Part shown: positions 15,271-30,854 of the stretch, in pieces
Layout of the letters: each line of letters begins with the position of its first letter
How positions within the stretch are numbered: the stretch's first letter is position 1
Source: an uncultured Ruegeria sp.
GTDB lineage: Bacteria > Pseudomonadota > Alphaproteobacteria > Rhodobacterales > Rhodobacteraceae
DNA: 64,000 nt
NCBI RefSeq assembly: GCF_947504215.1
Contig: NZ_CANNGO010000001.1
Location: 806,001 to 870,000, forward strand
Reading direction: 5' to 3'
Program-made: the position numbers and the translations under genes
Notes under the pieces: model-generated
The model's input: the letters and a program-made list of their open reading frames with translations, nothing else
Databases searched by the model: none
What the model was told of the DNA's origin: nothing

Positions 15271-16284
15271 CTAAGAAGAGCCAACCGGTTTTGTAGTTTC
15301 GCGCTCGATCAATCGCACTTGCGTGCGTTTGACCTCCGATGGCTCAAAGGAGTTCTCCAGCCAATCCAAAACGGTTTCTGCAACCTGTCGACCAAAGTCA
15401 TCGACACCGCAACAAATTGTGGACAATGCAGGCCAGCATTCTGCGGCCTCTTTGATGTCGTCGCAGCCGATAATCTGAAACTCTTCGCCAATGGTTTTTT
15501 GGGCCTTGTGACAGGCATTGATCATTCCAAATGCGACAAGATCGTTAAAACACACAGCCGCATCGTATTCCGGATGGTCTGTAAACAAAGAAGCTGCGGT
15601 GGTTTGACCGAATGAACGGCTGCTACGGCCCGTCAGAACCAGGGGCGGAAGGTCCTGTTCGGCCATGACCTCGAGATATCCTGAAACACGTTCATGCGTA
15701 ACAGGACGACCTTCGAGCCCGCCAACAAACGCAATACGCCGTGCTCCTGCTTGCAAAAGAACCCGCGTCGCCATACGGCCACCGGTCAAATAGTCAGGCG
15801 CCAGGAACGGAAACTTGGCGTAGTCACTGCTGATCTGACGCATCACTTGTATCGTTGGCACGCCAGAACGTTCGATCGCGGCAATCGAATTTGCCACGTC
15901 GCCATAAGCGGGCGATAGGATCAGCGCCGACACACCATGTTCCAGCATCGCACCAATAACCTGATCCTGGATTTCCGTATCTTCATTCGTGTTTGCCACA
16001 ACGACGGCATATCCACGAGATCCCAAGGCCATCTGCAGGGACGTAGCAAATTCTGTGAAGAACGGGTTGTTAAGGTCGTTGATGACCAACCCTATCAGTG
16101 CAGTACCGGAAGATCTGAGATTTGCCGCAGACCGGTTGTAGACGTAGCCGATCTCTTTCATCGCAGTGTGCACCAATTGGCGCGTCGCGGGCTTCACCTG
16201 CTCACTGCCCTGCAGAACAAGGCTTACCGTAGATTTGGAAACGCCCGCCTTGGTTGCAACATCTATGATCGTCGGTCTGCGCAT
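15271..16284 (-). CDS. LacI-family repressor at the end of the sugar operon
   Basis: 337 residues. The N-terminal LacI helix-turn-helix and hinge are clear (PTIIDVATKAGVSKSTVSLVL, then KEIGYVYNRSAANLRS), followed by the periplasmic-binding-protein-like sensor domain (LIGLVINDLNNPFF, IGCDDI). It is the last gene of the unit, 5 bp after the DUF993 gene. The probable operators are two palindromes at the head of the operon (30812-30844), whose central ACGT symmetry around a TGGAACGTTCCA core is of LacI-family type. The inducer is presumably the transported sugar or an early catabolite. Autoregulation follows from its place in the operon. These links are inference. Confidence 0.9.
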   Translation of the reverse strand: MRRPTIIDVATKAGVSKSTVSLVLQGSEQVKPATRQLVHTAMKEIGYVYNRSAANLRSSGTALIGLVINDLNNPFFTEFATSLQMALGSRGYAVVVANTNEDTEIQDQVIGAMLEHGVSALILSPAYGDVANSIAAIERSGVPTIQVMRQISSDYAKFPFLAPDYLTGGRMATRVLLQAGARRIAFVGGLEGRPVTHERVSGYLEVMAEQDLPPLVLTGRSSRSFGQTTAASLFTDHPEYDAAVCFNDLVAFGMINACHKAQKTIGEEFQIIGCDDIKEAAECWPALSTICCGVDDFGRQVAETVLDWLENSFEPSEVKRTQVRLIERETTKPVGSS

Positions 16285-16289
16285 TCAGC

Positions 16290-17459
16290 TTATTGCTCAA
16301 CCCCATGAAGGTTCAAAAGTGTGATCATCCGCTTTTTGGCCATATCCGGATCCAGAAGCAATCCGGCCTGATCCGCAAGCCGGAACACTTCGGCATAGTG
16401 GCAGATGTCGCGGCTGGATTGGAAACCACCGGGCATAACAAAATGAGATTGCGCGCCGTTCAACCACGCCAAATACGCAATCCCTGCCTTGTAGTACCGA
16501 GTTGGCGCCCTGAAAATCTCACGACTGAGAGGGACGGTTGGTGCGAACAAGGAGTTGTAACGATCCATGTCATTCTGGGCGAGCGCTTCAAGCGCTTGAC
16601 TTGCGGCCGGGGCAATTGCAGCGAAAATTCCCAACAAGGCGTGAGAATACCTCGATCCATCCCCGGCAATTAGGTCGGCGTAGTTGAAATCATCCCCAGT
16701 ATACAGGCGAACCCCGTCCGGGAGGCGGGCGCGAAACGCCTCTTCATGCGCCTGATCCAGCAAAGAGATCTTGATGCCGTCAACCTTGCCAGGGTTTTCG
16801 GTGATCAGAGACAGAACAAAGTCACTGGCCTTCTCGACATCGGCACTGCCCCAGTAACCGGTCAGCGCAGGGTCAAACACATCGCCCAACCAATGCAGGA
16901 TGACAGGATCCTTCGCCCCATCAATCAATGAACGATAGACATGATGATAGACATCTGGCCCAGCCTCGATTGCCGGAAAAGCGCGAGATGCCATCAGGAT
17001 CAGCTGTCCGCCTGCCGCCTCGATCTGTTCTGCCTGCATCTGGTAGGCTGACAGAATACTATTCGCGGTTTTGAGGTCTTCAAGACGCATATGATCCGTC
17101 CCTGCCCCACATGCGACCCTAGGAGACAATGGATGAGATTTGGCGGCGACCATGGTGCGCTGGATCAACTCTAACGCAGTGTTCCAATCCACACCCATGC
17201 CACGCTGTGCCGTATCCATTGCTTCTGCCAGGCCAAGCCCTTGATCCCACAGCCCTTGCCTAAACTGTAGCGTTGCATCCCAATCCACAGCCGGACGTCC
17301 GTCCCATGGGTATCGCTCGGCCAGCGGGTCCGAGACCACGTGCGCAGCGGCGAATGCCGTGCGTGTCAAGGGCACTTTCGGTGCGCGCGGCACCAACGGT
17401 GTTCCAGACAACTTGTACGGTGCCAATTGGCCATCGAGTCCTGGCAAGGTCAGGGCCAT
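16290..17459 (-). CDS. DUF993 family protein (dihydrodipicolinate synthase-like)
   Basis: 389 residues, typical for DUF993. Blocks such as ACGAGTDHM, QMQAEQIEAAGGQLILMASRA, PVILHWLGDVFDPALTGYWG and DGIKISLLD show the TIM-barrel family related to the DHDPS/NAL aldolases. The Lys in DGIKISLLD is at the position where class I aldolases of this group have their Schiff-base lysine. The family is found near sugar-oxidation genes; no reaction is established that I know of. A retro-aldol or dehydratase step on a keto-sugar is plausible here because the operon holds several sugar oxidoreductases and no kinase. It starts 4 bp after the Dabb gene. Confidence 0.8.
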   Translation of the reverse strand: MALTLPGLDGQLAPYKLSGTPLVPRAPKVPLTRTAFAAAHVVSDPLAERYPWDGRPAVDWDATLQFRQGLWDQGLGLAEAMDTAQRGMGVDWNTALELIQRTMVAAKSHPLSPRVACGAGTDHMRLEDLKTANSILSAYQMQAEQIEAAGGQLILMASRAFPAIEAGPDVYHHVYRSLIDGAKDPVILHWLGDVFDPALTGYWGSADVEKASDFVLSLITENPGKVDGIKISLLDQAHEEAFRARLPDGVRLYTGDDFNYADLIAGDGSRYSHALLGIFAAIAPAASQALEALAQNDMDRYNSLFAPTVPLSREIFRAPTRYYKAGIAYLAWLNGAQSHFVMPGGFQSSRDICHYAEVFRLADQAGLLLDPDMAKKRMITLLNLHGVEQ

Positions 17460-17463
17460 CTCC

Positions 17464-17772
17464 TCAGACCTCCAGATCCAGGACCAAAATCCCGTCGATC
17501 CCGCCTATTGCGTTCTCGACAAGCTGCCCGCCCAGTGCCTTGTGGGTTTCGTTGGTCGCATATGCCTCAAGCGCGGACCAATCAGCGAAATCAATGACAA
17601 ACCCGTGCATATAGCCACGCTCAATCTGTTCGGGGCTTTCGCTGCGACCCCCGGTAAACCCACCTGCCCCGGGCAGCGTCTCGGACAGATCAGATAGCCC
17701 TGCGTAGATTTTCGATATGGCCTGCTCGGTCACATCCGGGCGAAACTTGGTTAGAACGATATGGCGGATCAT
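17464..17772 (-). CDS. Dabb-family (stress-responsive alpha/beta barrel) protein
   Basis: 102 residues: MIRHIVLTKFRPDVT at the start and YMHGFVIDFADWSALEAYATN plus HKALG are the usual Dabb/ferredoxin-like pattern. These small dimeric proteins include cyclases and isomerases as well as proteins of unknown role. The start overlaps the GMC gene stop as ATGA. In this operon it may be a small lyase or isomerase on a keto-sugar product; no residue in the sequence proves catalysis. Confidence 0.8.
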   Translation of the reverse strand: MIRHIVLTKFRPDVTEQAISKIYAGLSDLSETLPGAGGFTGGRSESPEQIERGYMHGFVIDFADWSALEAYATNETHKALGGQLVENAIGGIDGILVLDLEV

Positions 17773-19361
17773 TGTGTTAACCCCTGATCTTGTTTGATCA
17801 TGTCAGCGGCTTTTTCACCGATCATGATGGTAGGTGCGTTTGTGTTTGATGAGTTGACCGTTGGCATGATCGAAGCATCAGCGACGCGAAGTCCCTCGAT
17901 CCCGTTGAATCGCAGGCGCGAGTCCAAAACCGCTTCGGCATCGCCGCCCATCCGACAAGTGCCCGCACAGTGGTGAGACGTCTTGGAATGCATGCAGATA
18001 AAGTTGAAATACTCTTGCTCAGTGCGAACACCTGGCCCTGGCAAACGTTCGGCAAGGATGAAGGGTTTCAAGGCATCTTGCGCGAGGATGTTCTGGACCA
18101 GTTTCAGCCCGCGGATCGACATCTCTCGATCATACGGATCGACCAGATAGTTCGGGTCGATCAACGGCATCGCTGCGGGATCAGCACTTTGTAATCGAAC
18201 GCTGCCACGCGATCGAGGTCGTAAGAAACAAGCGTTAAGGGTTACGCCTCCATTCGGCATCGCTTCGACACCCGCTTCGATACCGGTTCCAAGCCCCAGA
18301 TGCATCTGAAGATCCGGCGAACGCGCGTCTGGATCGGCGTACCAGAACCCTCCAGTTTCAAACAGGCTAGAGGCCACAGGACCTTTTCGGGTGAACAAGT
18401 ATTGCAGGCCGGCGAAGGCTGAGAGATGCAACTTAGCAAAACGGTCGTACGTGTGTGGTCCCGAGACCTCACAAATCGAGTACAAATCTAGGTGATCCTG
18501 CAGGTTTTCACCAACTTGCGGCTGATCAAAGACCGTCTTGATGCCAAGGTCTTCCAGATGATCCGCCGGGCCAACCCCAGACAACTGCAACAAACGTGGA
18601 GAGCCAATCGCGCCAGAACAAAGGATGACCTCATTCGATGCGCTGAATTTTTTACCGTTGATCAACTCCACGCCCGTTGTCCGGCCACGATCCACAAGGA
18701 TGCGGCGGACCTGGGCTCCAGTCTGAACGGTGAGGTTCGAACGGCCCCGGTTTGGAGCTATAAACGCCATGGCAGCTGACGACCGACGCGCATTTCGCTG
18801 GGTCAGCTGGTAATATCCGGCCCCGTCCTGTTTTTCGCCGTTTACGTCACGTGTTTCGGGAATTCCGACCTGTCCAGCCGCCTGAATGTAGGCGTCGCAA
18901 ATCGGCAGGGGTGCGGCAGGCATTGAAACCCCCATAGGCCCGCCCCTTCCGTGGAATGTGTTGTCATACGTGTCGTTGTCTTCAGATTTCTTGAAATAGG
19001 GCAGCACGTCGGCATAGCTCCACCCGTCGCACCCCATCTGTCGCCAGTCATCGTAGTCCTGCGCGGCGCCGCGCGTGTAAATCTGTGCGTTGATCGCAGA
19101 TCCGCCGCCAATCACCTTGGCTTGGGTATAGGTGAAAATCTTATCTTGCATGTGCTTCTGCGGAACGGTCGACCACCCCCAGCTGCCAATGCCTTTGGTC
19201 ATTTTGGCAAATCCGGCAGGCAGATGGAAAAACGGGTGCCGATCGGTTGATCCGGCCTCGAGCAACAGTACATTGGCCGAAGGGTCTTCGGACAAACGCG
19301 CCGCAATGACCGAGCCCGCCGACCCGCCACCAATCACAATGAAATCATACCCTTCAGACAT
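17769..19361 (-). CDS. GMC oxidoreductase, choline/alcohol dehydrogenase type
   Basis: 530 residues. The FAD motif GGGSAGSVIAARLSE (residues about 11-25), GMC signature 1 around VIGGGSAINAQIYTRG and the second signature SGAIGSPRLLQLSGVGP are present; the C-terminal catalytic region has HHCAGTCRMG and the last block VNSSNTNAPTIMIGEKAADM. This is the BetA/AlkJ-like branch, acting on primary alcohols with transfer of electrons to the respiratory chain. No signal peptide, so cytoplasmic or peripheral membrane. It follows the SDR by 27 bp and is the second GMC enzyme of the operon; its product aldehyde could feed the aldehyde dehydrogenase upstream. Substrate unknown. Confidence 0.9.
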   Translation of the reverse strand: MSEGYDFIVIGGGSAGSVIAARLSEDPSANVLLLEAGSTDRHPFFHLPAGFAKMTKGIGSWGWSTVPQKHMQDKIFTYTQAKVIGGGSAINAQIYTRGAAQDYDDWRQMGCDGWSYADVLPYFKKSEDNDTYDNTFHGRGGPMGVSMPAAPLPICDAYIQAAGQVGIPETRDVNGEKQDGAGYYQLTQRNARRSSAAMAFIAPNRGRSNLTVQTGAQVRRILVDRGRTTGVELINGKKFSASNEVILCSGAIGSPRLLQLSGVGPADHLEDLGIKTVFDQPQVGENLQDHLDLYSICEVSGPHTYDRFAKLHLSAFAGLQYLFTRKGPVASSLFETGGFWYADPDARSPDLQMHLGLGTGIEAGVEAMPNGGVTLNACFLRPRSRGSVRLQSADPAAMPLIDPNYLVDPYDREMSIRGLKLVQNILAQDALKPFILAERLPGPGVRTEQEYFNFICMHSKTSHHCAGTCRMGGDAEAVLDSRLRFNGIEGLRVADASIMPTVNSSNTNAPTIMIGEKAADMIKQDQGLTQ

Positions 19362-19388
19362 TCTGTTTTGCCCTCAGATCCTTGGTGT

Positions 19389-20147
19389 TCAAAGTCGCGA
19401 GATTGACAGGCCGCCATCCACTGGGATCACGGCGCCGGTGGCGAATTGCATCTGACCTTCAACAATCGGCAGGATGACATCCCCGATATCCTTCGGCTCG
19501 CCCCAGCGCGCCGCCGGGACAAGGCCACCCTCGATCCGATCTGTGTATTTGTCGCGCACCCCTACCGTCATGTCGGTAGCAATAATGCCCGGGCGCAACT
19601 CAAAGACGCCAATGCCAAGCGGGGCCATACGCACGGCAAAAAGCTGCGCCATCATCGCGGCGGCCGCTTTGGACACGCAGTATTCTGCGCGTTCAATCGA
19701 CACCATCGTTGCGCTGACAGAGGTGACAAAGGTTATCGACCGATAGCTGTCCCGAGGCTGCGCCTCCATGCGTCGCGCTACGTGCTGAGCCAGAAAGAAC
19801 GCCCCGCGCAGGTTGATATTCTGTACGGAATCCCAGTTCTCGGTCGTTAGATCCAGCATATCTCCGCGCACGGGCGCACCCACGCCCGCGTTGTTGATCA
19901 AAGCAGTGATCGGACCCAACTCAGCCTCGACCTGATCCAACAGCGTTGGGACATGAGCGATATCTGACACATCGTGCTGCACATGGATGGCGGCAGGGCC
20001 AAGTTCGGTCAATGCCGCCTTCACCGCGGGTGTGTCAGTGTCCGAGCGCGATGCCAATGCCACCTTATAACCGGCAGCGATCAGGGCACGGGAAATGCCC
20101 AGACCAATGCCTCTCTGCCCGCCGGTGACCAAAGCCGTTCCGCTCAT
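19389..20147 (-). CDS. Short-chain dehydrogenase (FabG-like)
   Basis: 252 residues. TGGQRGIG cofactor motif (residues 7-14), NNAGVG, the catalytic Ser in TSVSATMVS and YCVSK (YxxxK) are intact, and the C-terminal block QFATGAVIPVDGG is typical of classical SDRs. Its start overlaps the stop of the pyranose-type GMC gene by ATGA, so the two are made together. It probably oxidises or reduces a hydroxyl/keto group of a sugar intermediate. Naming it a 3-ketoacyl-ACP reductase, as automatic pipelines may do, would not fit the context. Confidence 0.88.
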   Translation of the reverse strand: MSGTALVTGGQRGIGLGISRALIAAGYKVALASRSDTDTPAVKAALTELGPAAIHVQHDVSDIAHVPTLLDQVEAELGPITALINNAGVGAPVRGDMLDLTTENWDSVQNINLRGAFFLAQHVARRMEAQPRDSYRSITFVTSVSATMVSIERAEYCVSKAAAAMMAQLFAVRMAPLGIGVFELRPGIIATDMTVGVRDKYTDRIEGGLVPAARWGEPKDIGDVILPIVEGQMQFATGAVIPVDGGLSISRL

Positions 20148-21634
20148 GCTGCAAACTCCGTTTCGATAATGTGGCGACCCGCTCGCAAAGCGAGGGCGGC
20201 GATGGTCAGCGCCGGGTTTACGGCGGCCGAAGTCGGTAAGACTGACGCATCAACAATGAACAGGTTCCGATGGTCGTGGCTGCGGCAATGGGTGTCGACC
20301 ACGCTGAGTGACGGATCGGTGCCCATACGCGCCGTGCCACACTGATGCGACGGGGTGCGCCGATCAAACGGACGAGAAAGAACGATCGGAAACCCGGCTT
20401 GACGGAGGTGCTTTTTTAAACGCGCGACCAGTGCTTCGTGCGCTTGCCAGTTCGAACGCTTCCAATCCAGACAAATTTGCTGGCCTCCGACGGTCACGCG
20501 GCTGTCGCGGTTCGGTAAATCCTCGGACATCGCGTAGAAGTCAAAACTTCGATTGGCGATAAGCGCCGCGATGGGGCCCGGCAGGTTGGTTTGTGAAGCA
20601 AGGATTGGACCAGTGATCTTGCCCAGCATCTGGATGTTGCCCAAGGGCAGAACTCCGTTGCCGGCAGCGTTGTAATAGTCGTTAAACATCAGAGTCTTCT
20701 GATATACGGACCGGTTTCGGCGCAGCGGGTGAATAGCCAGCACTGCCGAGCAATTGTGGTTCATGAAGTTCCGGCCTACCTGATCTGACCGATTGGCAAG
20801 ACCAGTTGGACAATTTTCGTTCGCGGACTTGAGCAACAACACTGTGGATTGAACTGCCCCGGCCGCCAGAGCAATCAAAGGGGCTTCAAAAGTGCCTCGC
20901 CCTTCGACTTCGACGCCTGAAACGCGACCTTCATCACTGGTTATCAATCTCTGCACAGCCGCACCGGTCTGCAGTTCCACATTTGAATGCAACAAAGCTT
21001 GGGCCAGCGCATTGGTTTCCGCATCCATCTTGCCACCGCAGGTGTTCGGATAGGCATCCCACGTGGTTTGTCCGTGTGCCAGCCATCTGTCGATATCGAC
21101 CCCGAGCGGGACTGACGAAGGGGTCAGACCAGTGCGCTGCAGACGAAGTCTGAGATCCGCAATATCGGGCTCATCTGGAACTGGAGGATATGGATAGTCA
21201 CCGCTGTGGGGCGGCTCGGTTGGATCCTCGCTGGTGACACCGCGTACATTGTAAAGGGTCTCGGCCGCCTGATAATCAGCCTCGAGTTCTTCATATCGGA
21301 TCGGCCAACCGGGTGATTGCCCGCCCATATGTTGGCGCGGTTCAAAATCCTCGGCCCGGTACCGTATCAGCGCCGCACCGTAGAATTTGGAATTCCCGCC
21401 CACACAATAATAGTTGCCCGGGCTGAAGAGTTTACCTTCGCCATCCTGCCATGTCTCATCGGGTCGAAAACGCCCGTCAGCGAATATCGCGTTTGGATCT
21501 CGATCCCAAGATGACGGGGTCAGACGTTCGCCCCGTTCAAGGATCAGGATTCGGCGCCCGCTCGGCGCAAGCACCGCAGCCAATGTCGCCCCGCCTATGC
21601 CGGACCCAATGATTATGACGTCGGCACGTGTCAC
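20144..21634 (-). CDS. GMC oxidoreductase, pyranose/gluconate dehydrogenase type
   Basis: 496 residues. FAD motif IIGSGIGGATLAAVLAPSG at residues 7-25, then CVGGNSKFYGAALIRYRAEDF where the flavin is usually anchored, and the C-terminal block HQCGTARMGTDPSLSVVD with SAAVNPALTIAALALRAG. This matches the branch with glucose/fructose/gluconate dehydrogenases and pyranose oxidases, rather than the choline dehydrogenase branch. There is no Tat signal and no small partner subunit gene, unlike the membrane-bound gluconate dehydrogenases, so a cytoplasmic enzyme is likely. Its place directly after the sugar ABC ATPase (ATGA overlap) suggests that it oxidises the imported sugar. Confidence 0.88.
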   Translation of the reverse strand: MTRADVIIIGSGIGGATLAAVLAPSGRRILILERGERLTPSSWDRDPNAIFADGRFRPDETWQDGEGKLFSPGNYYCVGGNSKFYGAALIRYRAEDFEPRQHMGGQSPGWPIRYEELEADYQAAETLYNVRGVTSEDPTEPPHSGDYPYPPVPDEPDIADLRLRLQRTGLTPSSVPLGVDIDRWLAHGQTTWDAYPNTCGGKMDAETNALAQALLHSNVELQTGAAVQRLITSDEGRVSGVEVEGRGTFEAPLIALAAGAVQSTVLLLKSANENCPTGLANRSDQVGRNFMNHNCSAVLAIHPLRRNRSVYQKTLMFNDYYNAAGNGVLPLGNIQMLGKITGPILASQTNLPGPIAALIANRSFDFYAMSEDLPNRDSRVTVGGQQICLDWKRSNWQAHEALVARLKKHLRQAGFPIVLSRPFDRRTPSHQCGTARMGTDPSLSVVDTHCRSHDHRNLFIVDASVLPTSAAVNPALTIAALALRAGRHIIETEFAA

Positions 21635-22743
21635 GGAACGATCCGCATCTCGCTTTCAGGATCAAAGGCAACTGCCTTTTCCATGTTGACGGCAAAGTTG
21701 AAATCCTGACCTGCCGCAACCTCGGCATCCGAACGCATCCGGGCGATGACATCGCGCCCGCCCAATTGCATCGACACAAACGTGTCTGAACCCGCAGGTT
21801 CGGTCACAACGATACGGTTGGTCATATTCGCAATGTTCGAAGACTTTCGGTCGGCGCCATCCATATCGGTAATCGTTTCCGGTCGAACCCCCAGCAGGAT
21901 GTCACGCCCGGCCCACGTCGCTAGATTGTCCTGGCTAAAGGGCAAATGCGCCGTCGATCCATCGTGCAGCACTACTTCGGCATGCGGGCGACCGTTCAAC
22001 ACCTCTACGCGCGCAGGCAACACGTTCATTGCAGGCGACCCCATGAAAGTGGCCACAAAGATATTGGCCGGGGTGTCGTAGATATCCTGTGGCGTACCAA
22101 GCTGCTGAACGTATCCGCCATTCATGACAGCGATCCGGCTGGACAGCGTCATGGCTTCGATCTGGTCATGCGTTACATAGACAATGGTAGTGCCAAGATT
22201 TTGGTGCAGCTTCTTGATCTCGGTCCGCATATCCACACGCAGTTTTGCATCGAGGTTTGACAGAGGTTCGTCAAACAGGAACACGTCAGGTTCGCGCACC
22301 AACGCGCGTCCCATTGCAACCCGCTGACGCTGACCGCCAGAAAGCTGCCCGGGCTTACGGTCCAGCAATTGTTCGATCTGAAGCAGACGGGCGACTTCGA
22401 TCATGGCCTTGTCGCGATCCGCTTTGGGAACGCCATGCATTTCCAGACCAAACGTGATGTTCTGTCCAACCGTCATATTCGGATAGAGCGCGTAGCTTTG
22501 GAACACCATGGCGATGTTGCGGTTTGATGGGTGGACCCCGTTCATCACCTTGTCCTTGATCCGAACCTCACCACTGGTGATCTCTTCCAGCCCGGCGATC
22601 ATGTTCAACAAGGTCGACTTACCGCACCCGGATGGGCCGACGAGAACCAGAAACTCACCTTCCTCCACCGAGATATCAACCTTGTGCAAAACCTCGACCG
22701 AGCCATAGGATTTGGTCGCGTTGTCTATGTCCAGAAAACCCAT
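21631..22743 (-). CDS. Sugar ABC transporter ATPase (MalK/UgpC type)
   Basis: 370 residues. Walker [10 protein letters not shown], signature [16 protein letters not shown], Walker [16 protein letters not shown] and the switch histidine in YVTHDQIEAM are present; the C-terminal 130 residues are the TOBE-type regulatory domain (VLPARVEVLNGR, LGVRPETI). It energises the permease pair encoded just upstream. It starts 6 bp after the second permease gene and its stop overlaps the GMC start (ATGA). Confidence 0.93.
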   Translation of the reverse strand: MGFLDIDNATKSYGSVEVLHKVDISVEEGEFLVLVGPSGCGKSTLLNMIAGLEEITSGEVRIKDKVMNGVHPSNRNIAMVFQSYALYPNMTVGQNITFGLEMHGVPKADRDKAMIEVARLLQIEQLLDRKPGQLSGGQRQRVAMGRALVREPDVFLFDEPLSNLDAKLRVDMRTEIKKLHQNLGTTIVYVTHDQIEAMTLSSRIAVMNGGYVQQLGTPQDIYDTPANIFVATFMGSPAMNVLPARVEVLNGRPHAEVVLHDGSTAHLPFSQDNLATWAGRDILLGVRPETITDMDGADRKSSNIANMTNRIVVTEPAGSDTFVSMQLGGRDVIARMRSDAEVAAGQDFNFAVNMEKAVAFDPESEMRIVP

Positions 22744-22749
22744 AAGGCC

Positions 22750-23631
22750 TTATCCTTTCACGGAACCCGCCATCAGGCCGCGGACGAAGTATCGACCAGC
22801 CACGATGTAGACGAGCAGAGTTGGCAAGGCGGCAAGAATGGCGCCTGCAAAATGAACGTTGTATTCCTTCACACCGGTTGACGATTGCACCAGGTTGTTA
22901 AGCGCGACCGTCATCGGTTGGCTGTTGGCATCCGCAAAGGACGCGCCAAACAGGAAGTCATTCCAGATGTTTGTGAACTGCCAGATGATTGAGACCACTG
23001 CGATTGGCCCGGAGCTGGGCAGAAGAATGCGCCAGAAGATCTGAAAGAACCCGGCCCCATCGATTTGCGCGGCCCGGATCAGTTCGGTTGGGAAGACAGC
23101 ATAGTAGTTGCGGAAGTAAAGCGTCGTGAATCCGATACCGTACACCACATGCACCAGGGCCAGGCCCCAAGTCGTTCCGGCCAACCCCATCAGACCCAGC
23201 ATGCGTGCCATAGGGATCAACACGATCTGGAACGGGATGAAACAGGCGAAAAGCATCAAGCCAAACAAGATAGTGTCGTATTTGAACCGCCACTTTGTCA
23301 GCACATACCCGTTCAGCGCACCCAGAACGGTCGAGACTATGACAGCCGGAACCACCATCTTGATGGAATTCCAGAAATACGGGCGCAGGCCTGTCGGCTC
23401 GACCCCGATTTGCGCCGACGACCAGGCTTTGATCCAGGGCTCAACGGTAAAGACCTGCGGCAAGTTCATCATGCCGCCGCCGGTAATCTCTTCCAGCGGT
23501 TTTAGTGAGTTTGCCAGCATCACGTAAAGCGGCAGAAGATAGAACAGTGAGAACAGTAATAGCACCAGATAGATCAGCGTGCGCGTGATGCGCCCGGTGC
23601 GGATCGCGGTATCCTGAGTCGCCTGAGCCAT
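22750..23631 (-). CDS. Sugar ABC transporter permease (MalG type)
   Basis: 293 residues with about six membrane helices and the coupling EAA loop ELIRAAQIDGAGFFQIFWRILLPSSGP. The first helix follows a basic N-terminus. It partners the preceding permease; the stop of that gene and this start share one base (TGATG). The size and order (binding protein, two permeases, ATPase) fit the glucose/mannose-type importers of COG0395. Confidence 0.9.
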   Translation of the reverse strand: MAQATQDTAIRTGRITRTLIYLVLLLFSLFYLLPLYVMLANSLKPLEEITGGGMMNLPQVFTVEPWIKAWSSAQIGVEPTGLRPYFWNSIKMVVPAVIVSTVLGALNGYVLTKWRFKYDTILFGLMLFACFIPFQIVLIPMARMLGLMGLAGTTWGLALVHVVYGIGFTTLYFRNYYAVFPTELIRAAQIDGAGFFQIFWRILLPSSGPIAVVSIIWQFTNIWNDFLFGASFADANSQPMTVALNNLVQSSTGVKEYNVHFAGAILAALPTLLVYIVAGRYFVRGLMAGSVKG

Positions 23632-24524
23632 CAGCGTTTCTCCCGCAATTCAGCATAAAGATAGGGAATCATGATCGCTGCGATAGTCATCAGCATAATC
23701 GTCGCCGATGCAGCGCCAATCCCCATCTGATTTCGGGTGAAGGTGTAAGAATACATGAAGGTTGCGGGCAGCTCGGTCGCGCGGCCTGGGCCGCCTCCGG
23801 TCAAGGCGATCACAAGGTCAAATGTCTTGATGGCCAGATGGCTGAGGATAACAAACGCAGACAGGAATGCAGGTCGCAATTGCGGAATAATGATGCGACG
23901 GTAGAGGTTCCAGTTCGACGCACCATCCATCTGTGCGGCACGCAGTATTTCGTTGTCGATCCCCCGCAGACCAGCAAGAAACATCGCCATAACGAAGCCG
24001 CTGGTCTGCCATACGGCGGCCAGAACAACCGTGTAAATTGCGTAGTCTCGGTTTTTGATCCAGTCAAACTCGAAACTTTCCCAACCCCAGCTGTGCATCA
24101 CGTTTTCCAACCCGATACCGGGGTCCAAAAACCACTTCCAAGCGGTCCCTGTCACGATAAAGCTGAGTGCCATGGGATATAGGTAAATCGGGCGCAGCAA
24201 ACCTTCGCCGCGGATTTTCTGATCAAGGAAGATCGCCAGGCCAAGCCCGATACAGGTGCAGATCACGATATAAAGACCCGCAAAGATGCCCATATTGATC
24301 AGAGATGTTTCCCAATGGCTAAGCCGCCAAAGTTTGTCGTAGTTTTCCCAACCAACCCATCCAAATGACGGCAGGATGCGGCTGTCGGTAAAGGACAGGT
24401 AGACCGAAAACAGGATGAACCCATAAACAAAGACCAGCATCATCGCCAACGAAGGCGACAGGACCAGTTTCGGGATCCAGTTTTGAAGGCGTGTCTTGAA
24501 ATCCGCGTCGGCTGAAACAGCCAT
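23631..24524 (-). CDS. Sugar ABC transporter permease (MalF type)
   Basis: 297 residues, six predicted helices, EAA loop EILRAAQMDGASNWNLYRRIIIPQLRP. It is the first permease after the binding protein, separated from it by a 97-bp gap with a strong hairpin (24580-24599), which probably lowers its expression compared with the binding protein. Confidence 0.9.
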   Translation of the reverse strand: MAVSADADFKTRLQNWIPKLVLSPSLAMMLVFVYGFILFSVYLSFTDSRILPSFGWVGWENYDKLWRLSHWETSLINMGIFAGLYIVICTCIGLGLAIFLDQKIRGEGLLRPIYLYPMALSFIVTGTAWKWFLDPGIGLENVMHSWGWESFEFDWIKNRDYAIYTVVLAAVWQTSGFVMAMFLAGLRGIDNEILRAAQMDGASNWNLYRRIIIPQLRPAFLSAFVILSHLAIKTFDLVIALTGGGPGRATELPATFMYSYTFTRNQMGIGAASATIMLMTIAAIMIPYLYAELREKR

Positions 24525-24579
24525 GGCGCGTCCTCCTAAAGTGGTGGTGTTCTAAGGCTTGGATTGCCCTCTTGGGACA

Positions 24580-24599: not shown

Positions 24600-24621
24600 C
24601 ATCGGGAGGATCACTTTTCGA

Positions 24622-25872: not shown

Positions 25873-25931
25873 TATGTTTCCTCCCTAAATGCGATCGTCG
25901 TTCGTTGAGCACCTTTTTTAAGTGCCTGTTG

Positions 25932-27455
25932 TTAGCTTTCCTGCACCCATCGCGTCCGGCTGTTGCCGATCCGCATAACCACAGATTTCACTTCAAAGAA
26001 TTCCTCGAACCCATATCGTCCAATCTCTCGTCCCTGCCCTGATTGCTTGAACCCACCGAAGGCAACTTCGGGAAATCCATCCATCCAGGTGTTGGTCCAG
26101 ACCGTTCCCGTTTCTGCACGACGGGCGAATTCAAGGCAGGTGTGAACACTCTCACTCCACGCGCCTGCGGACAGACCGTAAGCGCTATCATTGGTCAGTG
26201 TAACGGCCTCGTCCAGTGTTTTGAACGTCAGGATGGAAAGAACCGGGCCAAACACTTCGTCCCGTGCGATGGGCATGTCGGGAGTGACCTCGTCTATCAC
26301 TGTTGGCTGATAGAACTGATTGCCCAGACCTTCGACGTTCAACGGAGCACCGCCAAGCACAACAGTCGCGCCATTGGCCTCGGCTTCCTTGACATAAGCA
26401 TCAATTTTCAAGTTGTGCTGCGGGGTTACGATTGCGCCCACTTGCGTAGTTGGATCCAGCGGATCGCCGAACTTGACCTTGCGAGACAGGTCAACAACAC
26501 GGTCGCGGAAATCTTCTGCAATATCTTCATGCACGATAATCCGACTGCTTGAGTTGCAGCACTGCCCTACGTTGAAATAGACACCAAAAACAATAGCATC
26601 CGCAGCAGCATCCAAATCGGCATCCGGGAAGATCACTTGGGGGTTCTTGCCGCCTAGTTCCAGAGCCACTTTCTTAAGCGTGTCCGACGCTGTTGCGCTA
26701 ATGGTTTTGCCAACCCCCGTCGACCCCGTGAAGCTCACCATATCTACGGCCGGGTGGCTGGACATCAAGCTACCAACCGGCACACCGTACCCAAGCACAA
26801 TATTGCAGACACCAGCTGGTAGACCTGCCTCGACCAGCAGCTCACCCAGCATCAGGGTTGTCGAAGGCGTCATCTCTGACGGTTTCACCACGACGGTGCA
26901 GCCCGCCGCCAGTGCAAAGGGCAGTTTCTGGCTGAGAATCCAAAATGGGAAGTTCCACGGCGTGATGATCGACACTACGCCGATAGGCTCTTTCAGAACC
27001 ATGCCTACTATGTCTTCACCCAGCGTGTTGTGACTGTCCCCATGTGTGCTGCGTGCCAGCGAGGCCGCATAGCGCCACAAATCTGCAGCACCACCGACTT
27101 CTGCCTGGGACTGGCTGATCGGCTTACCGCTTTCCAGTGTTTCCATCAACGCGATGCGGTCGACATTGCACTCAATCAAGTCCGCAACTTTGAGTAAGAT
27201 CAATGCGCGGTGTTTGCCAGATGCCCGGCTCCAGACCCCGCTGTCAAAAGCCGCGCGGGCCGCTTCAATCGCTTTCTCAGCCTCAGCCTCTCCGCCCAAT
27301 GCGGATCGGCTGACGATGTGCCCATGCGACGGGGAGTGGCGTTCGAAGGTCTCACCAGATGCGCTGTCACAAAAAACACCGTTGATCAGGTGCCGACCTT
27401 CGAAAGGTTCGGGCAGATCGAAAGAAATTGCCGGGTTGATCGAAAGATCTTTCAT
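25932..27455 (-). CDS. NAD(P)-dependent aldehyde dehydrogenase
   Basis: 507 residues from ATG 27455, 4 bp after the hydratase stop; the open frame continues upstream by 46 codons but these lie in the hydratase gene and do not look like protein of this family. ALDH blocks: TPWNFPFWILSQKLPFALAAG, FTGSTGVGKTI, the general base Glu in LELGGKNPQ and the catalytic Cys in NVGQCCNSSSR, then EVFGPVLSI. It oxidises an aldehyde to an acid, betaine-aldehyde/aryl-aldehyde-like subgroup. Within the operon it could take the product of one of the two GMC alcohol oxidoreductases and deliver the acid to the CoA transferase. Confidence 0.9.
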   Translation of the reverse strand: MKDLSINPAISFDLPEPFEGRHLINGVFCDSASGETFERHSPSHGHIVSRSALGGEAEAEKAIEAARAAFDSGVWSRASGKHRALILLKVADLIECNVDRIALMETLESGKPISQSQAEVGGAADLWRYAASLARSTHGDSHNTLGEDIVGMVLKEPIGVVSIITPWNFPFWILSQKLPFALAAGCTVVVKPSEMTPSTTLMLGELLVEAGLPAGVCNIVLGYGVPVGSLMSSHPAVDMVSFTGSTGVGKTISATASDTLKKVALELGGKNPQVIFPDADLDAAADAIVFGVYFNVGQCCNSSSRIIVHEDIAEDFRDRVVDLSRKVKFGDPLDPTTQVGAIVTPQHNLKIDAYVKEAEANGATVVLGGAPLNVEGLGNQFYQPTVIDEVTPDMPIARDEVFGPVLSILTFKTLDEAVTLTNDSAYGLSAGAWSESVHTCLEFARRAETGTVWTNTWMDGFPEVAFGGFKQSGQGREIGRYGFEEFFEVKSVVMRIGNSRTRWVQES

Positions 27456-27459
27456 CTTG

Positions 27460-28227
27460 TCAAAGGCCTGAAAACTGAGGGTTTCGTTTTTCCTTAAAGG
27501 CCGCAACACCTTCGTCGCGATCCGCTGAAGCCGCAGCCGCAGCGCTACCGAGGGCTTCGACGACGGCCTGCGTGTCTTCGCCAACCGCTGCATGGATCAT
27601 GTTTTTTGAGATTTCCACGGCACGCGGGGACAAGCCTTGTATGTCAGCCACCATCTCAAGCGCGCGGGCCAGTGGATCGTCTGCCACCTCGGCCGCGAAA
27701 CCTAGTTCAACAGCGCGTTCCGCCCCAATACGACGGCCAAACAGCGCCATCTCTTTCACAGCGCCTTCCGGGATCAGCCGGGTCAGCCGCTGCGTTCCTG
27801 ACCAACCAGGCACAATCCCGACGCGTGCCTCTGGCAAGGCCAGCGTCGCACGGGGGGCCACAAGCCGCAGATCACAACAACTGGCCAATTCCAGCCCTCC
27901 GCCAAATGCATGGCCGTTAATCGCGGCAATCGTCGGCTTGCCCAGCCGCGCCAACCGGTCAAAAATCCGATGTCCGTCCCGCACCCAATGGCGCGAAAAC
28001 TCAGCCGGGCTTAAGTCACCCCATGCGCCAATGTCGGCGCCGCAGCAAAACGCCTTGTGGCCCGCACCGGTTACGATCAAGCTTCGTAGTGAGCTGTCGC
28101 GCTCAACTTGCTGAACCCGCGCTTCCAGCGCATCCAACATCTGCTTCGTTAAAGCATTCAGTTTGGCCGCGTTGTCCAACGTTAAGACTGCCGTTGACCC
28201 GTCGATATGAAAACCAATCCCGCTCAT
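27460..28227 (-). CDS. Enoyl-CoA hydratase/isomerase family protein
   Basis: 255 residues; start overlaps the CoA-transferase stop by ATGA. The oxyanion-hole segment KAFCCGADIGAW and the two catalytic glutamates of true hydratases, in GGGLELASCCDL and LPEARVGIVPGWSGTQRL, are both present, so hydration of an enoyl-CoA is likely. Its coupling with a CoA transferase shows that the pathway has a CoA-thioester stage, which is unusual for a sugar operon. Confidence 0.9.
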   Translation of the reverse strand: MSGIGFHIDGSTAVLTLDNAAKLNALTKQMLDALEARVQQVERDSSLRSLIVTGAGHKAFCCGADIGAWGDLSPAEFSRHWVRDGHRIFDRLARLGKPTIAAINGHAFGGGLELASCCDLRLVAPRATLALPEARVGIVPGWSGTQRLTRLIPEGAVKEMALFGRRIGAERAVELGFAAEVADDPLARALEMVADIQGLSPRAVEISKNMIHAAVGEDTQAVVEALGSAAAAASADRDEGVAAFKEKRNPQFSGL

Positions 28228-29795
28228 GGGGTCATCCCCATCGGGCCTTCGGCAAAAAGCTTACCGGGCATGAGTTTGGCGTTTTCTGCCACGGATATAC
28301 GCCCGCCGGACGCGTCGACGATATCGCGTTGCGGATCAATACCGGGCATGATCTCGTTCGCGACCAAACCGCCCTCAGTCAAGCGGATCACGCAACGCTC
28401 GGTGACGTATAGAACGTCTTGACCCGTCTCGCGCGCACGGCGCCCCGAGAAGGTGACATGTTCGACCTGGTCCACCATCTTGGTGAATTTTCCGGGCGCT
28501 GCGACTTTGATACCATCTGATCCCAGATCGATCTTGGCGCCTGCCTCGAACCAACCGGAAAATACGATTTTCTTCGCCCGCGCGGTTATATCAACAAAAC
28601 CACCGCATCCCGCTGTCAGGTAAGGTTTTTTGCCTAACTTGGAGACGTTCACATTGCCTTCGACATCCACCTCGAGGAACGACAGGAAAGACATATCGAA
28701 CCCACCGCCCTGAAAGTAGATGAACTGTTGTGGCGACGGTACGTAGGCATGGGCATTGGACGCGCATCCAAACGCAAATCCAGTCAGGGGCACACCACCC
28801 ACGGCACCTTGCTCAATGGCCCAGGTCACTGCCTGCGGGTGGCCCTCTTCCAGTAGAATACGCGGGACCATTGCGCTGATCCCAAAGCCCAGATTCGCGC
28901 TCATCCCCTTGCGCAACTCCAAAGCGGCCCGGCGCGCGATGACCTTCTCGACACCGTGTTCTGCTAGAGAAAAACTATCCCAGGGACGCATGACCTGTCC
29001 TGATATCGCCGGATCATAGGGTGTCTCAGTGGTCTGTTTCTGAAGCGGGTCCTCAACAATCAGGTCAACCAGATGACCCGGGACACGCACATCATGGGGC
29101 CGCAGACTGCCCGCAGCAGTGACTCGCTGAACCTGTGCGATCACCAGCCCACCGTGGTTGCGCACGCAGATTGCCTGCTCCAACCCACCCAGATACGCAC
29201 CTTCATGTTCGTATGTCAGATTTCCGAATTCATCCGCCGTGGTGGCGCGCATAATACAAACGTTCGGAACGATGTTGGGAAAGTGTAACCAGGTCTGACC
29301 ATCGAATTCTGCCCGAGCCACGATCGGTGCATCCGCACCGCGCGCATTCATCGCACAGCCTTCTCGGACCGGATCAACAAAGGTATCCAATCCGACTTGG
29401 GTTAACACGCCGGGCCGCCTTGCAGCAGCCTCGCGGTGCATATCGTACAGAATGCCCGAGGGAACGTTATAGGCTGCCACCCGATCCTCGACGATCATCT
29501 TCCAGATTTCAGGCATCTCAAGGCTTGAAGGGCCCGAAGGGTACGATCCGGCCAAAACGCGGCTCAGCAGCCCGTCTTGGGCCAGATGCTCCATACCCTT
29601 TACCCCGTACATGTCCCCTGCCGCGATGGGGTGAAGTGTTGTGATGTTGCGCGGATGCCCTTCGGCCTGAAACCGCTGACCTATGGCTTCGAGTACTAGA
29701 TCGGGGCATCCCAAGGCGGAAGATGACGACACCGTCACCACTGCATCGTCTGGGATGCGAGAAACAGCCTGGGATGCGGATACAAGCTTGGCCAT
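28224..29795 (-). CDS. Acyl-CoA:acetate CoA-transferase-like (YdiF family)
   Basis: 523 residues, both CoA-transferase domains fused as in E. coli YdiF. The catalytic glutamate is expected in WAIEQGAVGGVPLTGFAFG (EQG motif), and the glycine-rich region GMSANLGFGISAMVP precedes it. The enzyme would transfer CoA from an acyl-CoA donor to a carboxylate via a glutamyl-CoA intermediate. Start and the preceding stop share one base (TGATG), so it is tightly coupled to the Gfo/Idh gene. It supplies the acyl-CoA for the hydratase; the acid itself is unknown. Confidence 0.88.
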   Translation of the reverse strand: MAKLVSASQAVSRIPDDAVVTVSSSSALGCPDLVLEAIGQRFQAEGHPRNITTLHPIAAGDMYGVKGMEHLAQDGLLSRVLAGSYPSGPSSLEMPEIWKMIVEDRVAAYNVPSGILYDMHREAAARRPGVLTQVGLDTFVDPVREGCAMNARGADAPIVARAEFDGQTWLHFPNIVPNVCIMRATTADEFGNLTYEHEGAYLGGLEQAICVRNHGGLVIAQVQRVTAAGSLRPHDVRVPGHLVDLIVEDPLQKQTTETPYDPAISGQVMRPWDSFSLAEHGVEKVIARRAALELRKGMSANLGFGISAMVPRILLEEGHPQAVTWAIEQGAVGGVPLTGFAFGCASNAHAYVPSPQQFIYFQGGGFDMSFLSFLEVDVEGNVNVSKLGKKPYLTAGCGGFVDITARAKKIVFSGWFEAGAKIDLGSDGIKVAAPGKFTKMVDQVEHVTFSGRRARETGQDVLYVTERCVIRLTEGGLVANEIMPGIDPQRDIVDASGGRISVAENAKLMPGKLFAEGPMGMTP

Positions 29796-30796
29796 CAGAG
29801 CCCACCGTAATCGACATTAACCCGCTGCCCTGTCGCGGCAGCTTTACGCACGCAAAGTGCCACAGAAAGAGATTTTACCCCATCCGGGCCATCGGCGGCA
29901 GGCCGACCCTGTCCTGTGGCGGCGGCAACAAACTCAGAAACGCCTTGAACATACAGGTCATGATCCGAGTACGAGATGTTTTCCTGACCGGCCTCGGTCA
30001 CCAAGGTGATGTCGCCAATCGGGCTTTGGGTCATAATGCCCTTTGCAAAAATCGTTCCGTGCGTTCCGTGCACCTCCAAACCTGATCCGGCAAAAGGGTG
30101 CGTAAAGCTCTCATGTGTCATGACCATCGCACCGGAGGGCATGGTCCAGACAGACATGCAAGAATCCTCGACCCCCTGCCCCATGCCCGAGCTAGCCATC
30201 TGAGCCACGACCGAGGCCGGATCCTCCTGCAGCAGGAAGCGCGTAACATCTGCGTCATGCACCACAATGTCAGGAATCACGCCGCCCCCGGCACCTGCAT
30301 CGTTTATCCGCCACCCTTGTAGATTGCCTGGTAAGTGAACGGCATGATGAATGCGCAACGACAGTACCTGCCCCACGCGCCCTGCAGCAATCAGATCACG
30401 AATCGCGCGATGGCTGCCCGAACAGCGCAGGTGGTGATTGGTGCCAAAGACGGCATCCGCCGCCTCGGCCGCGCGCACCATCTCGATTGCCTCTTCCTGG
30501 GTCATCCCCAATGGCTTTTCGCACAACACGTGTTTGCCTGCCGAAATGGCGGCCGTGGCCTGCGCATGATGCTTTTCGTTGGTGGATGAAATGTAGACAG
30601 CCTTTACCTTGGGATCAGAAAGCGCTTCGGACAGGTTGGTCGTCGCGCACGCAATTCCATGATCATCGGCCCATACCTGAACCCGTTCAGGAGAGTTGCT
30701 AACGATCCAGGTCACATCGTGCCCCGGTTGTTGGCGTACTGCGTTCAGCATGTGTTGGGCAGCGATTGTACTTGCTCCAACAAAAACCCAGTCCAT
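29795..30796 (-). CDS. Gfo/Idh/MocA oxidoreductase, 1,5-anhydrofructose reductase-like
   Basis: 333 residues from ATG 30796, chosen because GGGGGA lies about 6 bases upstream and because the longer frame (to 30829) would run into the operators. N-terminal Rossmann domain MDWVFVGASTIAAQHML, then STNEKHH, the EKPLGMT signature with catalytic Lys, and TNHHLRCSGSHRAIRDLI, LQGWR, GGGVIPDIVVHDADVTRFLL. From memory these blocks are closest to 1,5-anhydro-D-fructose reductase of Sinorhizobium morelense. It heads the operon, behind the two LacI-type palindromes. If the similarity holds, the pathway handles an anhydro-sugar or keto-sugar; other family reactions remain possible. Confidence 0.82.
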   Translation of the reverse strand: MDWVFVGASTIAAQHMLNAVRQQPGHDVTWIVSNSPERVQVWADDHGIACATTNLSEALSDPKVKAVYISSTNEKHHAQATAAISAGKHVLCEKPLGMTQEEAIEMVRAAEAADAVFGTNHHLRCSGSHRAIRDLIAAGRVGQVLSLRIHHAVHLPGNLQGWRINDAGAGGGVIPDIVVHDADVTRFLLQEDPASVVAQMASSGMGQGVEDSCMSVWTMPSGAMVMTHESFTHPFAGSGLEVHGTHGTIFAKGIMTQSPIGDITLVTEAGQENISYSDHDLYVQGVSEFVAAATGQGRPAADGPDGVKSLSVALCVRKAAATGQRVNVDYGGL

Positions 30797-30811
30797 TTCA
30801 GATCCCCCAAT

Positions 30812-30823
30812 TAGAACGTTCCA
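30812..30823. promoter_or_regulatory. LacI-type operator O2 of the sugar operon
   Basis: TAGAACGTTCCA, one base different from the perfect palindrome O1 and 21 bp from it (two helical turns). It lies where transcription from the promoter at 30826-30854 would start (about 30819). Confidence 0.7.
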
Positions 30824-30825
30824 AT

Positions 30826-30854
30826 TCACTACTGGAACGTTCCAAACTTAGCAA
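30826..30854 (-). promoter_or_regulatory. Promoter of the 15.5-kb sugar operon
   Basis: Minus strand: -35 TTGCTA (30849-30854), 17-bp spacer, -10 TAGTGA (30826-30831). The spacer contains operator O1. The boxes are only fair matches, but spacing and operator placement support it. Confidence 0.45.
30833..30844. promoter_or_regulatory. LacI-type operator O1 of the sugar operon
   Basis: TGGAACGTTCCA, a perfect 12-bp palindrome with a central CG step as preferred by LacI-family repressors. Located in the spacer of the promoter candidate. Presumed target of the LacI protein encoded at 15271-16284. Confidence 0.75.

Follow-up and report, generated by a model that had tools for sequence, protein, structure and literature searches.

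The window analysed here, a stretch of 64,000 nucleotides from an uncultured Ruegeria sp. (contig NZ_CANNGO010000001.1, positions 806,001 to 870,000), carries an operon of 14 genes, all on the minus strand at 15271-30796. Its gene content would fit an aerobic pathway for 1,5-anhydrohexitols (1,5-anhydroglucitol, 1,5-anhydrofructose and/or 1,5-anhydromannitol) that converges on D-2-keto-3-deoxygluconate (D-KDG). The full scheme is offered tentatively, at somewhat less than even confidence; among the readings considered, an anhydrohexitol substrate fits the evidence best. A wider claim would make the operon both an undescribed aerobic 1,5-anhydroglucitol pathway and the true anhydrofructose route beyond the reductase, in which a CoA transferase and a crotonase open the ether-locked ring to KDG and two lower modules are interchangeable, one of them with a new type of aldolase or hydrolase, DUF993. 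This is possible, but more doubtful again.

The operon and its genes

The genes, in order from the first to the last, are:

29795..30796, minus strand: Gfo/Idh oxidoreductase of the 1,5-anhydro-D-fructose reductase (AFR) subfamily, 333 amino acids (aa); matches to 4koa and 2glx
28224..29795, minus strand: family I CoA transferase (CoAT), YdiF/FadX-like, 523 aa; PF01144; NF052271 at 287.5 bits, below the cut-off of 750
27460..28227, minus strand: crotonase-family hydratase/dehydratase (ECH), 255 aa; PF00378; 5zai
25932..27455, minus strand: aldehyde dehydrogenase (ALDH), 507 aa after start correction; PF00171
24622..25872, minus strand: ABC sugar-binding protein (SBP); 4r2b and 2b3b
23631..24524, minus strand: ABC permease 1 (TM); PF00528; GlcT-like, below cut-off
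22750..23631, minus strand: ABC permease 2 (TM); PF00528; GlcU-like, below cut-off
21631..22743, minus strand: ABC ATPase (ATP) of UgpC/MalK type; NF008653 at 458.1 bits (cut-off 432)
20144..21634, minus strand: pyranose-oxidase-like GMC oxidoreductase (GMCp); glucose dehydrogenase 6a2u at E 1.4e-36
19389..20147, minus strand: SDR, the marker of lower module A; NF009386 at 325.8 bits (cut-off 250)
17769..19361, minus strand: BetA/AlkJ-like GMC oxidoreductase (GMCb); PF00732/PF05199; NF002550 at 549.5 bits, below the cut-off of 605
17464..17772, minus strand: Dabb (alpha/beta barrel) protein; PF07876; 3bb5 at E 1.2e-14
16290..17459, minus strand: DUF993 protein with dihydrodipicolinate synthase/N-acetylneuraminate lyase fold, candidate aldolase or hydrolase; PF06187
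15271..16284, minus strand: LacI-family regulator, presumed operator binder; PF00356/PF00532; found in 76 of 80 related loci

Profile searches gave the fourteen same-strand genes the families that an original prediction, made from the letters and their reading frames, had named. Of the extent it proposed (15271 to 30854), the gene set stands and the upper end probably does not. The Gfo/Idh protein probably starts at the ATG at 30796, which makes it 333 aa long, the same as 4koa, and the coding span of the operon therefore ends at 30796. The ALDH probably starts at the ATG at 27455: the open reading frame (ORF) of 553 aa runs into the hydratase gene, and NCBIfam profiles match it only from about residue 67 onward. 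With these starts the successive intergenic gaps are -1, -4, 4, 59, 97, -1, 6, -4, -4, 27, -4, 4 and 5 bp.

A proposed pathway

A glucose-like pyranose would enter by the ABC importer. GMCp would oxidise C2, turning anhydroglucitol into anhydrofructose, which AFR would reduce with inversion to 1,5-anhydromannitol, and GMCb and ALDH would take C6, the sole primary alcohol, to the acid. The CoA transferase would then form the C6 thioester, making H5 acidic, and the crotonase would eliminate the C4 hydroxyl; net hydration at C5 would give a hemiketal, from which the ring would open to KDG. (That Dabb aids the opening is a guess.) The manno configuration left at C2 by AFR would become the D-erythro configuration of D-KDG, whereas the gluco form would yield the L-threo isomer. 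In the window, SDR would oxidise KDG at C4 and DUF993 would cleave the product to pyruvate and glycerate, the latter taken up by a glycerate kinase; some relatives would use a KDG kinase and a 2-keto-3-deoxy-6-phosphogluconate (KDPG) aldolase in place of SDR and DUF993. The substrate, the order of the steps, their regiochemistry, the CoA step and the DUF993 reaction are what we infer; directly observed are the gene families and their order, the operator, the AFR subfamily and the mutual exclusion of the two lower modules in the 80 loci described below. Ring opening by way of CoA is a specific idea and possibly a new one.

Conservation among relatives

How far is the operon kept? Relatives were collected by a GMCp-based scan of a species-genome collection, from which the best 80 of at least 578 loci were kept. 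Since these are the best-scoring rows, they are biased toward close relatives. Of the 80, 53 are Rhodobacterales by name, 19 Hyphomicrobiales and 8 others or unplaced, mostly metagenome bins. Twenty-two are shorter than 20 kb; the 58 of at least 20 kb are called long loci below. Presence and absence are local, inside the fetched stretch (tblastn, E 1e-6, coverage 30%, default identity 45%, with identity cut-offs of 50 for AFR and Gfo2, 40 for Flav, GlyK, Dabb2 and LacI2, 35 for KdgK and 30 for Eda).

The nine core genes CoAT-ECH-ALDH-SBP-TM-TM-ATP-GMCp-GMCb are complete and in the same order in 56 of the 58 long loci (the importer is missing from L024, the ALDH from L086), so the cluster is not due to chance. 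Three further genomes, those of Sinorhizobium meliloti Ak57, Microvirga ossetica and Rhizobium sp. SL42, share the order from AFR to GMCb at lower identity, each with LacI in front and DUF993 divergent upstream; the betaproteobacterium Paraburkholderia largidicola (L122) does so too, but without GMCp. The gene set is thus, as the original prediction required, a conserved unit well beyond one strain, and many marine as well as soil bacteria have it. In five of the 80 loci (L027, L035, L036, L054, L071) and in L121 a divergent LacI-like gene stands between ALDH and SBP, and therefore between the CoA genes and the importer; the unit is probably split in these six.

Distribution is patchy: at E <= 1e-60, GMCp has a match in 9 of the 37 genomes examined in the genus, the window's own genome among them, and in 7 of 385 drawn across the class. 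AFR homologues occur in 5 of the 385 class-wide genomes. Less complete contexts include a 3.3-kb contig with an AFR homologue (L114), a locus with AFR and, besides it, just a weak crotonase match (L115), and one with ALDH, AFR and GMCb homologues at 34-39% without CoA genes (L116); near GMCp homologues of 40-42% identity (L111-L113) the rest of the operon was not found.

The putative reductase and the candidate substrate

The first gene product belongs, by its structural matches, to the 1,5-anhydrofructose reductase subfamily, an assignment that goes beyond the original prediction. In the PDB it matches 4koa at E 1.8e-96 and 2glx, which we take to be the Sinorhizobium morelense enzyme, at E 7.5e-96; the next structure follows at 3.7e-22. 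The lysine of CEKPL and the residues of DI-VHDAD, presumably the AFR active-site lysine and His/Asp, are identical in the alignments made. The putative reductase would convert anhydrofructose to anhydromannitol with NADPH.

The matching operon of S. meliloti Ak57 encodes an AFR that agrees with the crystallised enzyme 4koa at 332 of 333 residues and is close to 2glx. There LacI is followed by AFR and by CoAT-ECH-ALDH-SBP-TM-TM-ATP-GMCp-SDR-GMCb, as in the window; DUF993 is divergent upstream, a glycerate kinase lies downstream and Dabb has no match. An anhydro-sugar, one of the substrates first guessed at, agrees both with the subfamily matches and with this operon. We assume that smc04396 and SMc04390-SMc04392 belong to the S. 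meliloti version of the operon and SMc04132 to the neighbourhood of the 4dnh gene (the 4dnh entry is titled SMc04132). Of these, smc04396 is induced by dextrin, according to one study (PMC4960864), and SMc04390-SMc04392 and SMc04132 stand in one table of PhaR-affected proteins in another (PMC12542648).

The binding protein matches 4r2b at E 1.8e-173 and is related to the glucose-binding protein 2b3b at E 2.9e-39, which bears out the prediction of a sugar importer of glucose-binding type. GMCp has glucose and pyranose oxidoreductases as its PDB relatives, and pyranose oxidase converts 1,5-anhydroglucitol to anhydrofructose. GMCp and AFR homologues are adjacent in Bradyrhizobium (L101), Arthrobacter (L117, beside a sugar importer) and Paraburkholderia PGU19 (L119), where no same-strand matches to the CoA, SDR, GMCb or DUF993 genes were found; such adjacency is expected if GMCp makes a ketone that AFR reduces. 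In L122 GMCp was not found and the other operon genes are kept, as expected if the pathway can be entered at anhydrofructose.

On the plasmid of Arthrobacter sp. StoSoilB3 (L117:21166-22185), a second AFR homologue lies about 8 kb downstream of the first, beside an MFS transporter.

CoA transferase and crotonase

The crotonase has 3-hydroxypropionyl-CoA dehydratase (5zai, E 8.3e-50) as its best PDB match and keeps, by alignment, the glutamates in GGGLELA and LPEARVG, which we take to be the two catalytic positions of crotonases. The single Pfam match of the CoA transferase is PF01144 (family I), so it does not belong to the CaiB (class III) family. In the original prediction the substrate could have an acyl or alcohol portion, distinct from its sugar, that would enter CoA metabolism; the neighbouring genes do not support this. 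Pfam scans found neither acyl-CoA dehydrogenase nor thiolase among the 14 operon proteins, and hence no complete beta-oxidation unit. The unmatched ORFs of the relatives form 22 clusters common to at least four of the 80 loci; the seven identified include no thiolase, acyl-CoA dehydrogenase or glycosidase, and the other 15, with median lengths of 93-189 aa, are too short to be any of these. What does recur beside the CoA genes are sugar-acid genes: glycerate kinase, a KDG kinase homologue and sugar isomerase.

Related genes also occur outside the operon. In Escherichia coli, the ytfB-rplI interval (L124:8024-16947) holds SDR, sugar isomerase, crotonase, CoA transferase, an FrdA-like flavoprotein and a TRAP importer, beside a TetR gene. 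At least 80% of this cluster is present in 1440 of 5426 complete E. coli genomes, and its flavoprotein is 55% identical to the one described below; it has the look of a sugar-acid pathway not yet characterised, in a species that is easy to work with. On S. meliloti pSymA (L102:5173-15727), CoA transferase, crotonase, glycerate kinase, acyl-CoA dehydrogenase, SDR, DUF993, isomerase and EtfBA stand together with no GMC matches. These contexts, with L099 and L110 below, show the CoA/SDR part to be a sugar-acid module that is used again and again, and the chemistry it performs may not be exactly that of the proposed scheme.

In Caballeronia sp. SL2Y3 (L100:7812-14079), a TetR gene is flanked by crotonase-CoA transferase on one side and SDR-DUF993-sugar isomerase on the other.

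Two lower modules

The lower part of the operon exists in two forms. Module A, the form in the window, consists of SDR and DUF993, often with a glycerate kinase; module B consists of an FrdA-like flavoprotein (Flav), often with a homologue of KDG kinase. SDR is present in 36 of the 80 loci and Flav in 38, and neither SDR nor DUF993 ever occurs there with Flav. DUF993 (34 loci) is always accompanied by SDR, which stands alone in L057 and L060. Glycerate kinase (DUF4147/MOFRL) occurs in 16 loci, 15 of them with DUF993, and the KDG kinase homologue in 20, all with Flav and none with DUF993. KDPG aldolase, a representative of which scores above the TIGR01182 cut-off, is found in six, again none with DUF993. 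The absence of a kinase, which the original prediction had remarked on, is thus true of the window operon, while relatives carry the two kinases just counted; these point to a pathway intermediate. KDG kinase and KDPG aldolase are absent from the window operon, the rest of the genome not having been searched for either. A class-wide search for Flav at E <= 1e-80 gave one match among 385 genomes.

Changes between the A and B types number 10 on the CoA transferase tree (67 rows) and 11 on the GMCp tree (81 rows), 6 and 4 of them forced by well-supported branches; the trees are quick ones with SH-aLRT support alone, which is good for 18 of 64 inner branches on the first and for 24 of 78 on the second. 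Such repeated changes indicate that the modules replace each other. The same is seen within the genus: in Ruegeria sp. THAF57 (L041) the half from CoAT to the ATPase is 81-98% identical to the window and the half from GMCp to LacI 56-83%, a pattern that, by sequence, shows a cassette swap in which a B block replaces SDR and DUF993. Whatever the substrate, a core that has exchanged its lower module more than once is a clear example of non-orthologous replacement. No type B locus lacks Flav, whether the kinase is there or not, so the flavoprotein would act before, or instead of, SDR and DUF993. The swapped modules suggest convergence on KDG.

DUF993 has the TIM-barrel fold of the dihydrodipicolinate synthase (DHDPS)/N-acetylneuraminate lyase superfamily, the fold of 2-keto acid aldolases. 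It matches PF06187 and not PF00701, which matches four other places in the genome, none of them in the window. Lys230, the candidate for the Schiff-base lysine that the superfamily carries on barrel strand 6, is invariant in 11 of 11 and 13 of 13 aligned rows (six rows common to both sets). The 120 homologues listed of 7999 scored are close ones, either unnamed or called 'hypothetical' or 'dihydrodipicolinate synthase family', and the nearest named one is a Ruegeria protein at 92%. No mention of DUF993 by name was found in the literature searched, which was mostly without subscription papers. Of the two proteins first proposed to perform the cleavage, DUF993 is retained on the ground of its DHDPS fold and Dabb found no support; Dabb as a lyase was dropped, the evidence being neither for nor against it.

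A plasmid of Komagataeibacter saccharivorans (L118:4240-7438) carries an AFR homologue (37%) followed by an MFS transporter and a fumarylacetoacetate-hydrolase-family protein, possibly an alternative enzyme for cleaving a diketo acid.

A shared operator

A tandem palindrome with the core TGGAACGTTCCA stands just upstream of AFR, and paired copies are found in many relatives too:

30832..30845, strand not assigned: LacI-type palindromic operator, distal copy, CTGGAACGTTCCAA, 1 mismatch to the 14-mer
30811..30824, strand not assigned: LacI-type palindromic operator, proximal copy, TTAGAACGTTCCAA

These are the two operator matches observed in the window, against 0.27 expected, and 2 of 100 shuffles reach two. 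The 12-mer core, with at most one mismatch, lies near the first operon gene in all 52 testable loci. A locus counted as testable if it measured 11 kb or more and its first match to AFR or CoAT started more than 400 bases from the locus edge; the span searched reached from 350 bp ahead of that match start to 60 bp past it. Elsewhere it occurs just 9 times in 1.46 Mb beyond the counted places. It also stands ahead of the type B block at 15 of 37 loci, even where that block lies on the other strand (L065, L069 and L075, for example), which ties at least those blocks to the same regulator as the core. The probable binder is the operon's own LacI protein. Promoter-like and terminator-like patterns between 15000 and 31300 showed no excess over shuffles (6 versus 7.9 and 14 versus 16.9).

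Weighing the proposal and its rivals

What speaks against the anhydrohexitol scheme? The following points all do so. The window AFR is 48% identical to that of S. meliloti Ak57, and Gfo/Idh enzymes change substrates. AFR is present in 41 of the 58 long loci; all 58 have AFR or Gfo2, a second Gfo/Idh protein, and five have both, so that wherever AFR is absent Gfo2 is present and AFR chemistry is not universal. Crotonases hydrate the beta carbon; the proposed ring opening would take net hydration of the alpha carbon. In L110 the importer and GMCp are accompanied by neither AFR nor CoA genes (a 29% kinase match is there), the DUF993 cluster of L099 has no CoA genes, and in L102 the CoA, SDR and DUF993 genes for once accompany an acyl-CoA dehydrogenase and ETF. 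The kinase names are best matches below the NCBIfam cut-offs (KDG kinase, 258.5 of 400 bits; glycerate kinase, 196.6 of 550), and the KDG kinase homologue stands beside just 20 of the 38 Flav loci. If KDG is made before the modules part, kinase and aldolase alone should suffice, which leaves Flav unexplained. On the CoA transferase tree the markers are opposite in five of five independent pairs (p 0.0625, too few pairs to reach 0.05); SDR and Flav homologues adjoin in E. coli L124 and L126, confining the exclusivity to the operon context; and 22 of the 37 type B blocks lack the operator. Lys230 of DUF993 lies in the model strand 226-232, the sixth of the barrel by our own count, and profile alignments to DHDPS failed to align it. 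There is also the route described for Rhizobiaceae: according to a 2025 review (PMC12441222), those that use 1,5-anhydrofructose reduce it by a specific reductase to 1,5-anhydromannitol, whose C1 is then hydroxylated by a P450-like enzyme, itself unidentified, to give mannose (Kuhn et al. 2006, as cited there). This mannose route in S. morelense contradicts the proposed C6 oxidation and CoA steps, at least in that organism.

An unlikely alternative keeps the substrate class and changes the chemistry. Oxygenation or oxidation at C1 would turn 1,5-anhydromannitol into mannose, from which GMCb and ALDH would make mannonate; CoA transferase and crotonase, together a CoA-dependent sugar-acid dehydratase, would convert mannonyl-CoA to KDG-CoA, and the same lower modules would follow. 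It agrees with the mannose intermediate reported for S. morelense (PMC12441222), and KDG would again be the endpoint. The crotonase step would become a plain beta-dehydration, the nearest structure being a dehydratase. However, a Pfam scan found no P450 among the 14 operon proteins and the P450 matches of the genome are far off (contig C6; contig C1, 17-18 kb). Nor is an extra enzyme conserved within the operon spans of the 58 long loci, where the unmatched same-strand ORFs of at least 200 aa number just 10, spread over 7 loci. The detour through CoA would also be odd, given that ordinary sugar-acid dehydratases exist.

A free hexose or osone is an improbable substrate. AFR also reduces osones, so its homologue could reduce a 2-keto-aldose made by GMCp, and the product would pass by a uronate-like acid to KDG, in keeping with the glucose-type relatives of SBP and GMCp. 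Such a pathway would, however, duplicate central Entner-Doudoroff metabolism, and an aldose would give a 4-deoxy-5-keto uronate in need of one further reduction (which SDR, Gfo2 or the flavoprotein could supply). Slightly less probable is the glycoside of the original prediction: the GMC and Gfo/Idh enzymes would oxidise its sugar, and CoA transferase, hydratase and SDR would degrade the acid of its aglycone. An AlkJ/BetA-like GMC with ALDH and CoA genes does resemble alcohol-to-acyl-CoA catabolism, and on pSymA the CoA genes accompany acyl-CoA dehydrogenase and ETF; but the seven neighbour clusters identified offer no thiolase, acyl-CoA dehydrogenase or glycosidase, the others being short ORFs, and the genes that vary alongside the CoA pair are sugar-acid genes. 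Least probable of all is a 3-keto sugar pathway, with GMC and Gfo/Idh acting at C3 and DUF993 cleaving. In its favour, the Gfo2 of type B loci, which occurs in 27 of the 80 relatives, comes closest to levoglucosan (3-)dehydrogenase (307.6 bits for the representative, below the cut-off of 650), and GMCp has a weak match to 7dve (E 7.1e-7), which we take for a C-glycoside 3-oxidase though the PDB listing names it otherwise. It fits poorly with the AFR subfamily in most long loci and leaves the KDG kinase homologues unexplained. Among the 14 operon proteins no dedicated 3-keto-glycoside cleaving family is found.

Three further readings were dropped: glucose via gluconate (no gluconate dehydratase, and too many oxidoreductases), 3-deoxyglucosone or Amadori products (two GMC enzymes not needed) and retro-Claisen cleavage of a 3-keto intermediate (SDR not needed).

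Relation to known pathways

The steps of the anhydrohexitol scheme have counterparts elsewhere. In the carnitine CaiB-CaiD cycle, a CoA transferase and a crotonase eliminate a beta-hydroxyl and the CoA is recycled; the window pair would be alike in its elimination, but its transferase is of family I, not CaiB, and the substrate would be a sugar acid. The alginate and pectin monomer routes (DEH reductase, KduI/KduD, KdgF) pass through Delta-4,5 elimination and ring opening to a keto-deoxy acid and KDG, with the manno or gluco origin setting the stereochemistry. Here the elimination would use a CoA ester and a crotonase on a free monosaccharide acid rather than a polysaccharide lyase. Non-phosphorylative Entner-Doudoroff metabolism and the diketo-acid routes for L-rhamnose and L-fucose split a 2-keto-3-deoxy acid into pyruvate and a C3 compound, with an SDR before the cleavage and a glycerate kinase after it; the window cleaver would be DUF993, with its divergent DHDPS fold, in place of KDG aldolases or fumarylacetoacetate-hydrolase-type enzymes.

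Closest in substrate are two anhydro-sugar pathways. The same reductase subfamily starts both S. morelense anhydrofructose catabolism and the window scheme, and the Ak57 operon holds the crystallised AFR, but the S. morelense route goes on by P450-like hydroxylation at C1 (PMC12441222), for which the window operon has no gene. The anaerobic 1,5-anhydroglucitol-6-phosphate pathway of gut bacteria (YbiW/PflD), described in the same review, acts on the same sugar class by phosphotransferase-system phosphorylation and oxygen-sensitive radical chemistry, whereas the window operon has an ABC importer and no kinase or glycyl radical enzyme among its 14 proteins. The review states that no oxidative 1,5-anhydroglucitol pathway analogous to the anhydrofructose route has been described, and the literature searched, mostly without subscription papers, yielded no description of an aerobic one.

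Why would such a pathway matter? According to the review (PMC12441222), nearly every food that has been analysed contains 1,5-anhydroglucitol, and in two human diseases the 6-phosphate of this sugar is the cause of the neutropenia. Probiotics are unlikely to help, it adds, unless an enzyme is found that acts on 1,5-anhydroglucitol in the presence of oxygen. The conserved operon and its concrete order of steps make aerobic anhydroglucitol breakdown directly testable. If true, the scheme would give functions to DUF993 and to the flavoprotein/CoA-transferase/crotonase gene set, and CoA activation would open a sugar ring as the CoA-dependent counterpart of the polysaccharide lyase step.

Flanking genes and other observations

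In the 4.53-Mb genome around the window, the genes flanking the operon are functionally unrelated to it: upstream lie PutA and an Lrp-type regulator ORF, downstream a HAD phosphatase. PutA (31200-35009, plus strand) is a bifunctional proline dehydrogenase of ordinary proline catabolism, and the Lrp/AsnC-type regulator ORF (31020-31508, minus strand) overlaps, as called, the putA start.

Two plasmid loci add minor observations. On the plasmid of Arthrobacter sp. NtRootA2 (L099:7756-13203), DUF993 shares its locus with a ribose-type importer and with genes of the GMC, ALDH and Gfo/Idh families. On the P. largidicola plasmid (L122:6723-7157), a 435-bp stretch about 5 kb from the operon carries the PLSDB label of a predicted VIM-type beta-lactamase gene.

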